Assembly: GCA_021736445.1 (NCBI GenBank)
Contig: JAIPGA010000016.1
Span: 1 to 38,172 of the forward strand
DNA: 38,172 bases
DNA from: Synergistales bacterium
GTDB taxonomy: Bacteria > Synergistota > Synergistia > Synergistales > Aminiphilaceae
Direction: 5' to 3'
The notes under the pieces are model-generated. The model did no database searches. It saw only the letters and a list, made by a program, of their open reading frames with translations, and was not told the DNA's origin. Shown in pieces: positions 24,157-27,871 of this stretch; the first letter of the stretch is position 1; every line of letters starts with the position of its first letter. The translations under genes were made by a program, and so were the position numbers.

Positions 24157-25797
24157 TTACAAGGCTCCTTTCGTCTCTGAAGGTGGCGTCGCCTGCACAT
24201 CGATGAGCGTGGGACACTGCCTGGCAAAGGCGCGTTGCAGTGCCTGCTCCGTCTCCGCGCCGTTTTCCACAGCCTCGTAGGCGATACCGTAGGCTCCGGC
24301 AAGGGATTGCAACTCCGGTCCCCGGAGGTCCACGGCGATACGTCTTCCGGGCTGGAGCACCGCCTCGTTGCGGCGGATCTCGCCGTACCCGCCGTCGTTC
24401 CAGATCATGATGGGCAAGGTCAGCCCCTCCTGGGCGGCCACGGCCAGCTCGGGCAGGGTGAACTGGAAGCCGCCGTCGCCGGAGAAGACACAGACCGGCG
24501 CCGTCGGCTCAGCCAGCTTGGCGCCGATCGCTCCGGGCAGGGCATACCCCAGCGTGCCGAACCCCACAGGGTGGTGGAAGGTCCGCGGGTGCCGGGCGGG
24601 GAACTCGCTGAGGGCCACATAGGCGGCCCCGGCCATGTCGATAAAGAGCTTCCCCTCCTCCGGCAGACCTGCGCGCATCCCCTGCAGGACATCGAGCATG
24701 AGCGGGAACTCTCCGCCCATACCGGTGATGCCGTTGACCTCCTCCCGGGAGCGTTTCACCAGGCCGGCCACCGCGGTGACGGTGTCCCATCCGATCGGAA
24801 TCGCAACGTCCAGGCGCTCCATCAGGGCGGAGGCGGCTTCCGCGGCGTCCCCCCGGATGCCGATATCGGCACGGAAATTCCGGTCGAAGTTGGCGGCGTC
24901 CACATCCACCTGGATCAGGCTCCCGCCGAGCTGCAGCGGGAACTCCCAGAGATCGGCGGGGGAGATCTCCGTCCCCACGGCAAGCATCACATCGCAGCCG
25001 GCGACATACTCCCGCACCGACGGCAGGTGGATCCGGGTGCCGATGCAGAGAGGATGGTCCTCGCTCACCACGCCTTTTCCGGCCATGCTCTGCAGCACAG
25101 GCATATCGAGCCGCTCGGCCAGACGGGTGAGCTCTTCGGCTGCCCCCGCGGCTCCGCCGCCGAGATACATCACCGGCCGTTCGGCCCCGGCGAGTCGCTG
25201 GGCGGCCGCATCGAGCTGCGTCCCGTCCAGGGGCGGCAGCGGGGAGGGGCCCTTCGGATCGGGGATGGGGGCCTCCTCCCGGCAGGCGCCGTTGATGACA
25301 TCCATGGGAACCGCCACATGGACCGGCCCGGGGCGTCCCGTTACAGCCAGGCGGAAGGCATCGGCCAGCGCATCGGGGATCGCTGCGGCGCTGGTCACGC
25401 AGCGGCTCTCCTTGGCCACGGCCCCCATCACCGTTGTGGCGTTCCGCAGCTCGTGGAGAAATCCGCAGCCCTTGCCGATCCAGGCAGTGGGGATCTCGCT
25501 GGAGATCACCACCATGGGCACCGAATCGTGGTAGGCCTCGCCCATGGGGGTGAGGATGTTGGTCATGCCGGGCCCGGAGATGACCAGCGCCACCCCCACC
25601 TGCCCGGTGCTCCGTGCGTAGCCGTCGGCCATGAACCCCGCGCCCTGTTCGTGCCGGGTCGTGACATGACGGATACCGCTGTCGTACAGCGCATCGTAGA
25701 TACCGAGATTGTGGATCCCCGGAATACCAAAGATGGTGTCCACACCCTGGGATTTCAAGGTTTGGACAACCAGTTGGCCTCCTGTCGCCAATTCCAT
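24157..25797 (-). CDS. Thiamine-diphosphate-dependent enzyme of the acetolactate synthase type
   Basis: A 546-residue protein with the three-domain fold of this superfamily. The catalytic Glu50 lies in TTRHEQGAGFMADGYAR. The diphosphate/Mg motif reads SGDGGFQFTLPELAVAAQ through WNDGGYG near the C-terminus. The N-terminal third (IFGIPGIHNLGIYDAL, then GKGCGFLHELRN) recalls, from memory, the arginine-pathway decarboxylase AruI more than acetolactate synthase. No regulatory-subunit gene accompanies it, so acetolactate synthase is unlikely. Its substrate is probably a 2-oxo acid or related compound obtained with the importer encoded just downstream. It is the first gene of that operon; GAGAAGGG lies ahead of the ATG. 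Confidence 0.85.
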   Translation of the reverse strand: MELATGGQLVVQTLKSQGVDTIFGIPGIHNLGIYDALYDSGIRHVTTRHEQGAGFMADGYARSTGQVGVALVISGPGMTNILTPMGEAYHDSVPMVVISSEIPTAWIGKGCGFLHELRNATTVMGAVAKESRCVTSAAAIPDALADAFRLAVTGRPGPVHVAVPMDVINGACREEAPIPDPKGPSPLPPLDGTQLDAAAQRLAGAERPVMYLGGGAAGAAEELTRLAERLDMPVLQSMAGKGVVSEDHPLCIGTRIHLPSVREYVAGCDVMLAVGTEISPADLWEFPLQLGGSLIQVDVDAANFDRNFRADIGIRGDAAEAASALMERLDVAIPIGWDTVTAVAGLVKRSREEVNGITGMGGEFPLMLDVLQGMRAGLPEEGKLFIDMAGAAYVALSEFPARHPRTFHHPVGFGTLGYALPGAIGAKLAEPTAPVCVFSGDGGFQFTLPELAVAAQEGLTLPIMIWNDGGYGEIRRNEAVLQPGRRIAVDLRGPELQSLAGAYGIAYEAVENGAETEQALQRAFARQCPTLIDVQATPPSETKGAL

Positions 25798-26301: not shown

Positions 26302-27549
26302 TCATGCGACCCGACGGACCCGCTTGGCCTTGCCGTCCCAGCGCTCCAGCGTCCCGGGACGCTCCAGCCGACAGCCCACGCGGACGCCGAGGAGCGAGAG
26401 AAGCTGGTGGGAGGTCTTCCTGGTGAGCTGCGCCATGGCTTCCCCGGAAAGCGGCTCCGCCGCCTCGCTGACCACGGTGAGCTCGTTCATGCCGCCCCGC
26501 TCGCTCACCTCCAGCATGTAGTGCATGGAGAGCTCCTCCACCCTGCCGAGGGCCACCTCCACCTGAGAGGGGAAGACATTGACCCCCCGGATGATCAGCA
26601 TGTCGTCGGTGCGCCCCCGGATGCGCTCGATCCGCGTCCCCTTCCGGCCGCAGCCGCAGGTGCCGGGGAGCACCCGGGTGATGTCCCGCGTCCGGTAGCG
26701 GACCACCGGCATGGCCTCCTTGCCCAGCGTGGTGATCACCAGTTCGCCCTCCTCGCCCTCAGGCAGCTGCCGGCCCGTATCGGGGTCGATCACCTCCGCC
26801 AGAAAGAGCCGGTCGTCGATGTGGAGACCGCTCTGGGCGGGGCATTCGATGCCCACACCGGGCCCCATAACCTCCGAAAGGCCGTAGATATCCAGCGCCG
26901 TGATCCCCAGGTCGTCCTCCAGCCGAATGCGCATCTCCTCGGACCAGGGCTCGGCGCCGAAGATCCCCACCCGGAGATTGAGCCGGTCGCGGTCGTCCAT
27001 GGCCCTGATCATCTCGCCGAGTTTCAGCCCGTAGGAGGGCGTGCAGGCCAGCACCGTCGAGCCAAGATCCTCCATGAGCATCAGCTGCCGTTCCGAGAAG
27101 CCGCCGGAGGCCGGGATCACCGTGGCCTCCAGGTCCTCCGCGCCGTAGTGGAGCCCCAGTCCTCCGGTAAAGAGCCCGTAGCCGTAGGCCACCTGCACGA
27201 TGTCCTCGGCGCCCACGCCGGCGATGCGCAGACAGTCGCCCATGGCCTGGGACCAGAGGATAAGATCCCTTTTGGTGTAGGCCACCACCGTGGGCTTGCC
27301 GGTGGTCCCCGAGGAGGCGTGGATCCGCATGAGATCTTTGGGATCGCAGGCGAGCATCCCCAGGGGGTAACCGTCCCGCAGGTCGTCCTTGGTGGTGAAG
27401 GGCAGCAGGGAGAGATCGCCTGGATCCTTGATATCGTCGGGGAAGACCCCCGTCTCCTCCATCTTCGCCCGGTAGGCCGGGGCCTTCTCCCACATTCGCC
27501 TGACCAGTCCCTGCAGACTCTCTCCGCTTGTCTCCACTCTGTACATCAT
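26302..27549 (-). CDS. Phenylacetate-CoA ligase-type arylacetate-CoA ligase
   Basis: A 415-residue cytoplasmic AMP-forming ligase of the PaaK family. The AMP/phosphate motif is HASSGTTGKPTVVAYT near residue 94; YGLSEVMGPGVG near 220 and VRYRTRDITRVLPGTCGCGR near 295 are also typical, as is the C-terminal lid with RGVNVFPSQVE. It joins phenylacetate or a related aryl acid to CoA using ATP. Anaerobes pair such ligases with indolepyruvate ferredoxin oxidoreductase; no such gene is visible here. The ATG at 27549 is chosen because AGGGAG sits 8 bases ahead. The upstream leader with five Phe codons and a terminator suggests Phe-controlled expression. Confidence 0.9.
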   Translation of the reverse strand: MMYRVETSGESLQGLVRRMWEKAPAYRAKMEETGVFPDDIKDPGDLSLLPFTTKDDLRDGYPLGMLACDPKDLMRIHASSGTTGKPTVVAYTKRDLILWSQAMGDCLRIAGVGAEDIVQVAYGYGLFTGGLGLHYGAEDLEATVIPASGGFSERQLMLMEDLGSTVLACTPSYGLKLGEMIRAMDDRDRLNLRVGIFGAEPWSEEMRIRLEDDLGITALDIYGLSEVMGPGVGIECPAQSGLHIDDRLFLAEVIDPDTGRQLPEGEEGELVITTLGKEAMPVVRYRTRDITRVLPGTCGCGRKGTRIERIRGRTDDMLIIRGVNVFPSQVEVALGRVEELSMHYMLEVSERGGMNELTVVSEAAEPLSGEAMAQLTRKTSHQLLSLLGVRVGCRLERPGTLERWDGKAKRVRRVA

Positions 27550-27580: not shown

Positions 27581-27618
27581 AAAAAAAGGACCCCCACCGC
27601 TTTTGGGTGAGGGCCCTT
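27581..27618 (-). terminator. Intrinsic terminator (attenuator) in the leader of the ligase gene
   Basis: On the minus strand AGGGCCCTCACC pairs with GGTGGGGGTCCT, twelve pairs including two G-U, followed by seven T (complement of 27581-27587). It lies between the leader ORF and the ligase ATG, 32 bases before that ATG. A segment reading GGACACCC (complement of 27625-27632) could pair instead with the terminator's 3' arm and act as antiterminator. Confidence 0.85.
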
Positions 27619-27639
27619 GCTCTCGGGTGTCCAGCGCGA

Positions 27640-27732
27640 TCAGGCGCCGGTCCCTGGAGCAGGACCCGCGCTAAAAAAGAAGAAAAACCGATTGGCAGTG
27701 CGTACATGTTGAATCTGGCTGGACCGTATCAT
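27640..27732 (-). CDS. Phenylalanine-rich leader peptide (attenuation leader)
   Basis: A 30-codon ORF starting ATG at 27732 with GGAGGT (complement of 27738-27743) six bases ahead, and ending TGA at 27640-27642. The peptide begins MIRSSQIQHV and continues RTANR-FFFFF-SAGPAPG. Codons 16-20 are five consecutive Phe codons (complement of 27673-27687), a 15-base T/C run that stands out in GC-rich DNA. Directly after them GCGC-G-GGTCC can pair with GGACC-G-GCGC, giving a strong hairpin that ends near the leader stop. Placement between a promoter and a terminator matches pheL-type leaders. It is too short to be found by ordinary gene calling. Confidence 0.85.
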   Translation of the reverse strand: MIRSSQIQHVRTANRFFFFFSAGPAPGTGA

Positions 27733-27746
27733 CCGGTACCTCCACA

Positions 27747-27871
27747 AGGGACATGCCGTCCCTTTTGATGGTTGGGTTTATACCACAGCGGTCCGGAGGC
27801 GTCAAGGGCAGAGGCACCCCTGCGGCCGGACAGCGAACGCGTCACCCCTCTCCGGGACCAGGGACATGCCG
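27747..27871. repeat. Pair of 12-base direct repeats around the ligase promoter
   Basis: AGGGACATGCCG occurs at 27747-27758 and again at 27860-27871, one copy just downstream of the predicted transcription start and one 55 bases upstream of the -35 box. Two exact copies flanking a promoter could be operator sites for a looping regulator; chance is not excluded. Confidence 0.35.
27777..27805 (-). promoter_or_regulatory. Promoter of the ligase attenuation leader
   Basis: On the minus strand TTGACG (complement of 27800-27805), a spacer of exactly 17 bases, and TATAAA (complement of 27777-27782). Each box matches the sigma70 consensus at five of six positions. Transcription would start near 27770, about 38 bases before the leader ATG. 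A 7-bp hairpin AAGGGAC/GTCCCTT (27746-27764) lies between. Confidence 0.8.

Follow-up and report, generated by a model that had tools for sequence, protein, structure and literature searches.

A predicted phenylalanine attenuator before a PaaK-type arylacetate-CoA ligase gene in Synergistales, and the likely re-codable scaffold to which it belongs

In a Synergistales bacterium (assembly GCA_021736445.1), the gene of a PaaK-type arylacetate-CoA ligase is preceded by a leader which we read, with a probability of roughly 0.8, as a phenylalanine-sensing attenuator that induces the ligase for the salvage of phenylacetate via the oxidoreductase IorAB and an aminotransferase. The window, i.e., the whole stretch of DNA that was analysed, comprises 38,172 nt of contig JAIPGA010000016.1, and both the leader and the ligase gene are on its minus strand. 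The larger find, new beyond the preliminary description of this DNA, appears to be a re-codable family of leaders with a single attenuator scaffold and interchangeable codons, present phylum-wide. It is likely that one homologous scaffold has been copied through the phylum and re-targeted by swaps of its stall codons (Phe, Tyr, Phe/Tyr, Ile or Leu/Val); from the codons, one could then read the cognate amino acid of an arylacetate-CoA ligase or a 2-oxoacid:ferredoxin oxidoreductase and, with it, the physiological substrate and direction of these enzymes in amino acid synthesis by reductive carboxylation.

The leader can be read directly in the sequence. It consists of the following parts: (i) a promoter (27777-27805) with the boxes TTGACG (27805-27800) and TATAAA (27782-27777) separated by a 17 nt spacer; (ii) a ribosome-binding site, GGAGGT (27738-27743); (iii) an ORF of 30 codons (27640-27732) which starts with the ATG at 27732 and is translated as MIRSSQIQHVRTANRFFFFFSAGPAPGTGA, followed by the stop codon; (iv) within this ORF, the predicted stall site, five consecutive Phe codons, TTT TTC TTC TTT TTT (27673-27687); and (v) an intrinsic terminator (27618-27586) whose run of seven T (27587-27581) completes the element at 27581-27618, downstream of which the ligase ATG is found at 27549. 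All these parts are present where the preliminary description had placed them. It had also noticed a hairpin, which does exist; it was, however, placed after the ORF, whereas the 1:2 hairpin (GCGCGGGUCC ... GGACCGGCGC; 27643-27672), as defined by RNAalifold and covariation, lies within the coding region and only touches the stop codon with its 3' end. The antiterminator (27606-27667) is formed by the pairing of GGGUCC (27667-27662) with GGGCCC (27616-27611) and of GCUC (27660-27657) with GAGC (27622-27619), and encloses a nested hairpin, CCGGCGC:GCGCUGG. When both strands of the window were scanned for an aromatic leader followed by a terminator, this locus was the single match, and the same scan of all the fetched loci returned just a handful of apparent chance matches.

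The arrangement is that of pheL, the Phe_leader (RF01859) of enterobacterial pheA: a proximal ORF with a run of cognate codons, an intervening terminator, mutually exclusive 1:2, antiterminator and terminator helices, and predicted induction by Phe starvation. Nevertheless, the leader has no match to the Rfam covariance model RF01859 at its gathering score, and it precedes an arylacetate-CoA ligase while pheL precedes a chorismate mutase-prephenate dehydratase. No match to a T-box riboswitch was obtained with Rfam either.

The attenuator would sense charged tRNA-Phe through the translating ribosome. With sufficient Phe, the ribosome would reach the leader stop codon and cover the antiterminator strand located in the coding region, and the terminator at 27618-27581 would end transcription. 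When Phe is scarce, the ribosome would instead stall on the five Phe codons, partly masking arm 1; the leader GGGUCC could then capture the terminator 5' arm, with the nested hairpin in between, and the ligase would be transcribed. The ligase would convert phenylacetate into phenylacetyl-CoA, IorAB would carboxylate the latter reductively to phenylpyruvate, and an aminotransferase would yield Phe. The preliminary description held that the leader reveals the direction in which the PaaK-type enzyme runs. This needs correction: the reaction of an AMP-forming ligase leads to the CoA thioester whichever pathway it serves and, hence, the direction that can be read from the leader is that of the downstream oxidoreductase (IOR) step. 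PaaK-type ligases are usually annotated as catabolic, and IOR/POR as fermentative; the enzyme sequences are silent on direction, and it is a short regulatory peptide that would here indicate both the direction and the predicted substrate for each paralog.

The ligase itself (26302-27549, 415 aa) matches TIGR02155, PF14535 and the structure 2Y27. Its score against TIGR02155, 495 bits over 402 residues, is below the curated cut-off of 646.3, and we classify it from its sequence as PaaK-type, short of the curated PaaK equivalog. Its closest solved structures are phenylacetate-CoA ligases (Burkholderia PaaK1, 2Y27, E 3e-117), and phenylacetate is its predicted substrate. In the tree of ligases, leader codons follow the paralog: the window ligase belongs to a clade of eight with Phe-dominated leaders (support 96/93); a clade of four with Tyr leaders (100/98) includes the second ligase of the same genome (C1:46591-47796) and has the runs AAYYYYYAY, VYYYAY, FYYYYVY and GYYYVY; a sister clade of 11 (96/94) has mixed Phe/Tyr leaders, with runs such as FYFYYF and FFEYYY; and a clade of three has Trp leaders (100/100). 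In one genus, the loci L145, L146 and L147 carry WWW leaders of a different RNA design, with two successive terminators, before a distant paralog that is about 42% identical to the window ligase (in L145, the next gene encodes an MFS transporter); this paralog is a candidate for indoleacetate salvage. The Phe and Tyr ligase clades are separated by 21 alignment positions, the majority of which fall in 118-169 and 221-228, the acyl-pocket region. Position 122 of the window ligase, occupied by Tyr or Phe among members of the Phe clade but by Leu in those of the Tyr clade, aligns with chain residue 141 of 2Y27. We take this residue to be the aryl-pocket Tyr136 of PaaK1, and Tyr122 of the window ligase is presumably its counterpart, an assignment made by alignment; the pockets of PaaK1 and PaaK2 were reportedly described by Law and Boulanger in 2011.

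We searched 188 Synergistota genomes with a covariance model built from the Phe/Tyr leaders; 42 of the genomes contain matches at E up to 0.001, 70 in all, and about half of the matches, by our own count, precede PaaK. The window leader scores 58.8 bits on this model, of which it is a training member. None of 80 PaaK loci outside Synergistota matched the model, even with E allowed up to 1. Leaders on the same scaffold with Ile runs precede genes for a threonine-dehydratase-like (IlvA-type) PLP enzyme, AzlC and a PorCDAB-type 2-oxoacid:ferredoxin oxidoreductase (NIIIIIINAAPPRRIG), and leaders with Leu/Val runs precede ilvN-ilvC-leuA, at weaker model scores. Since Ile and Leu biosynthetic genes stand under the common scaffold, the sign of the control logic is set; together with the geometry of the leader, this supports the induction of the ligase by Phe starvation that had been predicted earlier. 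The Synergistales scaffold is thus common to Phe, Tyr, Ile and Leu/Val leaders, whereas enterobacterial leaders for different amino acids, pheL included, are not known to share a single RNA scaffold. With its naturally varied stall codons on a constant RNA frame, it may be useful for studies on attenuator evolution and for engineering.

The Ile-run leaders found before the PorC-type gamma subunit of an oxidoreductase operon are located at L206:2047-2119, L240, L242, L244, L245, L248, L250, L251 and L254. The codons suggest a role in Ile synthesis for this enzyme, which one would otherwise annotate as pyruvate synthase and which would be a second reversible carboxylating enzyme with predicted control by starvation for its cognate amino acid. 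Scaffold leaders with mixed F/W/Y codons occur before sodium:solute symporters and before a 400-aa membrane protein with no NCBIfam match (L188, L189, L190, L191, L196, L236, L239; L197, L230, L232), whose genes are candidates for transporters of aromatic amino acids or arylacetates. At L187 (G041:C76), a Phe/Tyr leader matches the scaffold strongly and no full PaaK was found in that genome.

Regarding physiology, the genome of the window (97.6% complete, 112 contigs) encodes IorAB; no aromatic leader was found before IorA at the fetched IOR loci. Prephenate dehydratase (PDT) and TrpB are present, with a WWWW leader before a second TrpB, and de novo Phe synthesis is hence probably possible, with salvage as a supplement; chorismate synthase (AroC) was not found in this genome, an absence that is unsure, with PDT at a contig end. 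WWW or WWWW leaders with terminators were observed before trpB at L256 (contig C34 of the window genome), L137:5502-5670 and L127:14163-14298. Across the 61 genomes searched for the ligase, PDT and AroC were each found in 33. The genome of Aminobacterium colombiense is complete (1,980,592 bp; PMC3035294), and neither PDT nor AroC was found in it; it still has the leader and the ligase, and its TrpB has a FWWW leader.

A real Phe-responsive attenuator could also control a ligase that is catabolic or detoxifying, recapturing, for instance, phenylacetate from Phe fermentation, with its expression under starvation being incidental. Synergistales do ferment amino acids (PMC3035294), fermentation is a setting in which both IOR and PaaK-type enzymes are found, and other families of Synergistales have IOR-adjacent ligases with no leader. 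But induction by starvation has the wrong sign for a catabolic enzyme, the leader code tracks three different ligase paralogs, the scaffold otherwise precedes Ile and Leu/Val biosynthetic genes, and genomes lacking PDT and AroC retain both leader and ligase; we regard this alternative as improbable. The salvage route proposed in the preliminary description gains from the presence of IorAB in the genome, the retention of leader and ligase in genomes lacking PDT and AroC, the Tyr-coded twin and Trp-coded relatives of the ligase, and the biosynthetic role argued for a similar ligase (PMC13285125). Starvation-induced phenylacetate salvage is, as far as sequence comparison goes, the best-supported reading and a well-supported one. 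Together with the leaders that relatives carry, re-coded for Tyr, Ile or Leu/Val, before other genes, it suggests that under amino acid shortage these anaerobes turn waste organic acids back into amino acids.

The exclusive terminator and antiterminator forms on which this control would depend, and for which the preliminary description had proposed to look, were found both by folding and by the covariation of the exclusive helices. RNAalifold of the relatives' leaders likewise places the 1:2 hairpin within the leader ORF. Changes on both sides of a pair numbered 26 for the 1:2 helix (9.0 in shuffles), 27 for the antiterminator helix (14.7) and 16 for the nested hairpin (5.3), and in each case 0 of 500 shuffles reached the observed value; likewise, paired cells, both-side-changed cells and the covariation score were above 500 of 500 shuffles for the three structures, figures which, as the shuffles ignore relatedness, are support and not probabilities. 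Pairs were counted in two alignments (A2 and A3), the MAFFT alignment of the full leader-terminator region being too ragged. The 1:2 helix was the only one used in fitting the alignment, so the antiterminator and the nested hairpin were not built into it. In the antiterminator, the partner of the leader GGG(A/U)CC is the terminator 5' arm, and the key pair covaries (A-U 16, U-G 19). The antiterminator segment of the window has a free energy of -39.5 kcal/mol (z = -3.8; -3.83 unrounded), and the mean MFE z across 30 leaders is -2.7. In single sequences, the probability of pairing between the terminator 5' arm and upstream RNA was not above that in shuffles; as this measure is not decisive, the case for the antiterminator rests on covariation and the MFE z.

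In the full leader with no ribosome, the antiterminator is already the thermodynamically preferred fold. This leaves some doubt about the default state, and one could suppose an inverse logic in which stalling at Phe codons promotes termination and plentiful Phe induces the ligase. This is very unlikely. The geometry is of the starvation type: the Phe codons directly precede arm 1 on its 5' side, next comes the antiterminator strand, and the stop codon is at the 3' end of this strand; in folds, a ribosome at the Phe run leaves the strand free and one at the stop codon covers it. An inverse logic would, besides, be anti-adaptive for the ilvN and IlvA-type genes under the common scaffold.

The alignment across relatives that the preliminary description had called for confirms the conservation of the element. 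Reading the DNA upstream of the ligase in the 61 genomes, a leader ORF containing aromatic codons and a terminator were found before 29 of the 29 ligase-clade members with upstream sequence (11 genera; one further member, cut by a contig end, is outside the 29), with leader, Shine-Dalgarno sequence, promoter and terminator at the corresponding place. Most relatives' leaders are preceded by GGAGG and by a promoter similar to TTGAC(A)-17-TATAAA; at least 10 of 12 promoter positions match in 25 of 33 cases, and the mean best score is 9.6 vs 6.1 in shuffles. The hairpin arms covary, and the Phe codons are kept in the window's clade and swapped in frame for Tyr, Ile or Leu/Val codons elsewhere. As the codons are synonymous mixtures (TTT/TTC, TAT/TAC), it is the amino acid that is kept and not a nucleotide tract. 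Relatives devoid of Phe codons or terminator, which would have counted against the interpretation, were looked for and it stands; one genus of the Phe clade (g8) has thinned Phe codons (VFxMVFSF or VFSMGYFF), and the leaders of genus g22 (four members) have just two aromatic codons near each other. That a Phe-rich ORF arose by chance before the ordinary terminator of an upstream gene is hardly credible: leader ORFs are short and U-rich tracts do produce Phe codons, but the 29/29 conservation, the mixed TTT/TTC codons, the in-frame Tyr swaps, the covariation and the leader's own promoter and Shine-Dalgarno sequence contradict it. The identification of the element as a ribosome-mediated transcription attenuator is supported by its conservation, by exclusive helices that covary and by codon swaps in which both frame and scaffold are preserved.

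Comparable enzymology has been described elsewhere. Methanogens make aromatic amino acids from aryl acids via IOR (PMC3462420) and, in Bacteroides, an IOR-linked AMP-forming ligase, assayed as an arylacetate-CoA ligase, has been argued to be biosynthetic (PMC13285125). The proposed route has the same steps, from arylacetate to the CoA thioester, reductive carboxylation by IOR and transamination; we found no description of control by attenuation through the cognate amino acid in those two reports and, unlike the Bacteroides ligase, the leader-controlled ligases of Synergistales are apart from the IOR operon. Whether anaerobes use fermentation acids to make their aromatic and branched-chain amino acids is an old question which now becomes directly testable. 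Phe/Tyr-rich candidate uORFs near shikimate genes were reported by Stav et al. (2019; PMC6429828) in a study of five genomes, that of Thermovirga lienii among them. They resemble the present leaders in composition and in that one of the genomes studied also belongs to Synergistota, and may partly overlap with them; the main text of that report names neither species nor an arylacetate-CoA ligase for these uORFs.

Leaders before PaaK genes were also sought in Desulfovibrionales, beta-proteobacteria, Bacillota and Methanobrevibacter, and convincing ones were found in two Desulfovibrionaceae only (L041:4775-4908 and L053:4767-4901). These are unrelated Phe leaders, with terminators and exclusive folds, before a paaK followed by a small gene that resembles, as read from its sequence, an ACT-domain protein; they are apparently convergent. 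Finally, the next gene noted downstream of the ligase, from which a gap of 500 bp separates it, encodes a ThDP enzyme (window 24157-25797, minus strand) which scores above the cut-off for 5-guanidino-2-oxopentanoate decarboxylase and has a promoter-like site of its own (26224-26196).
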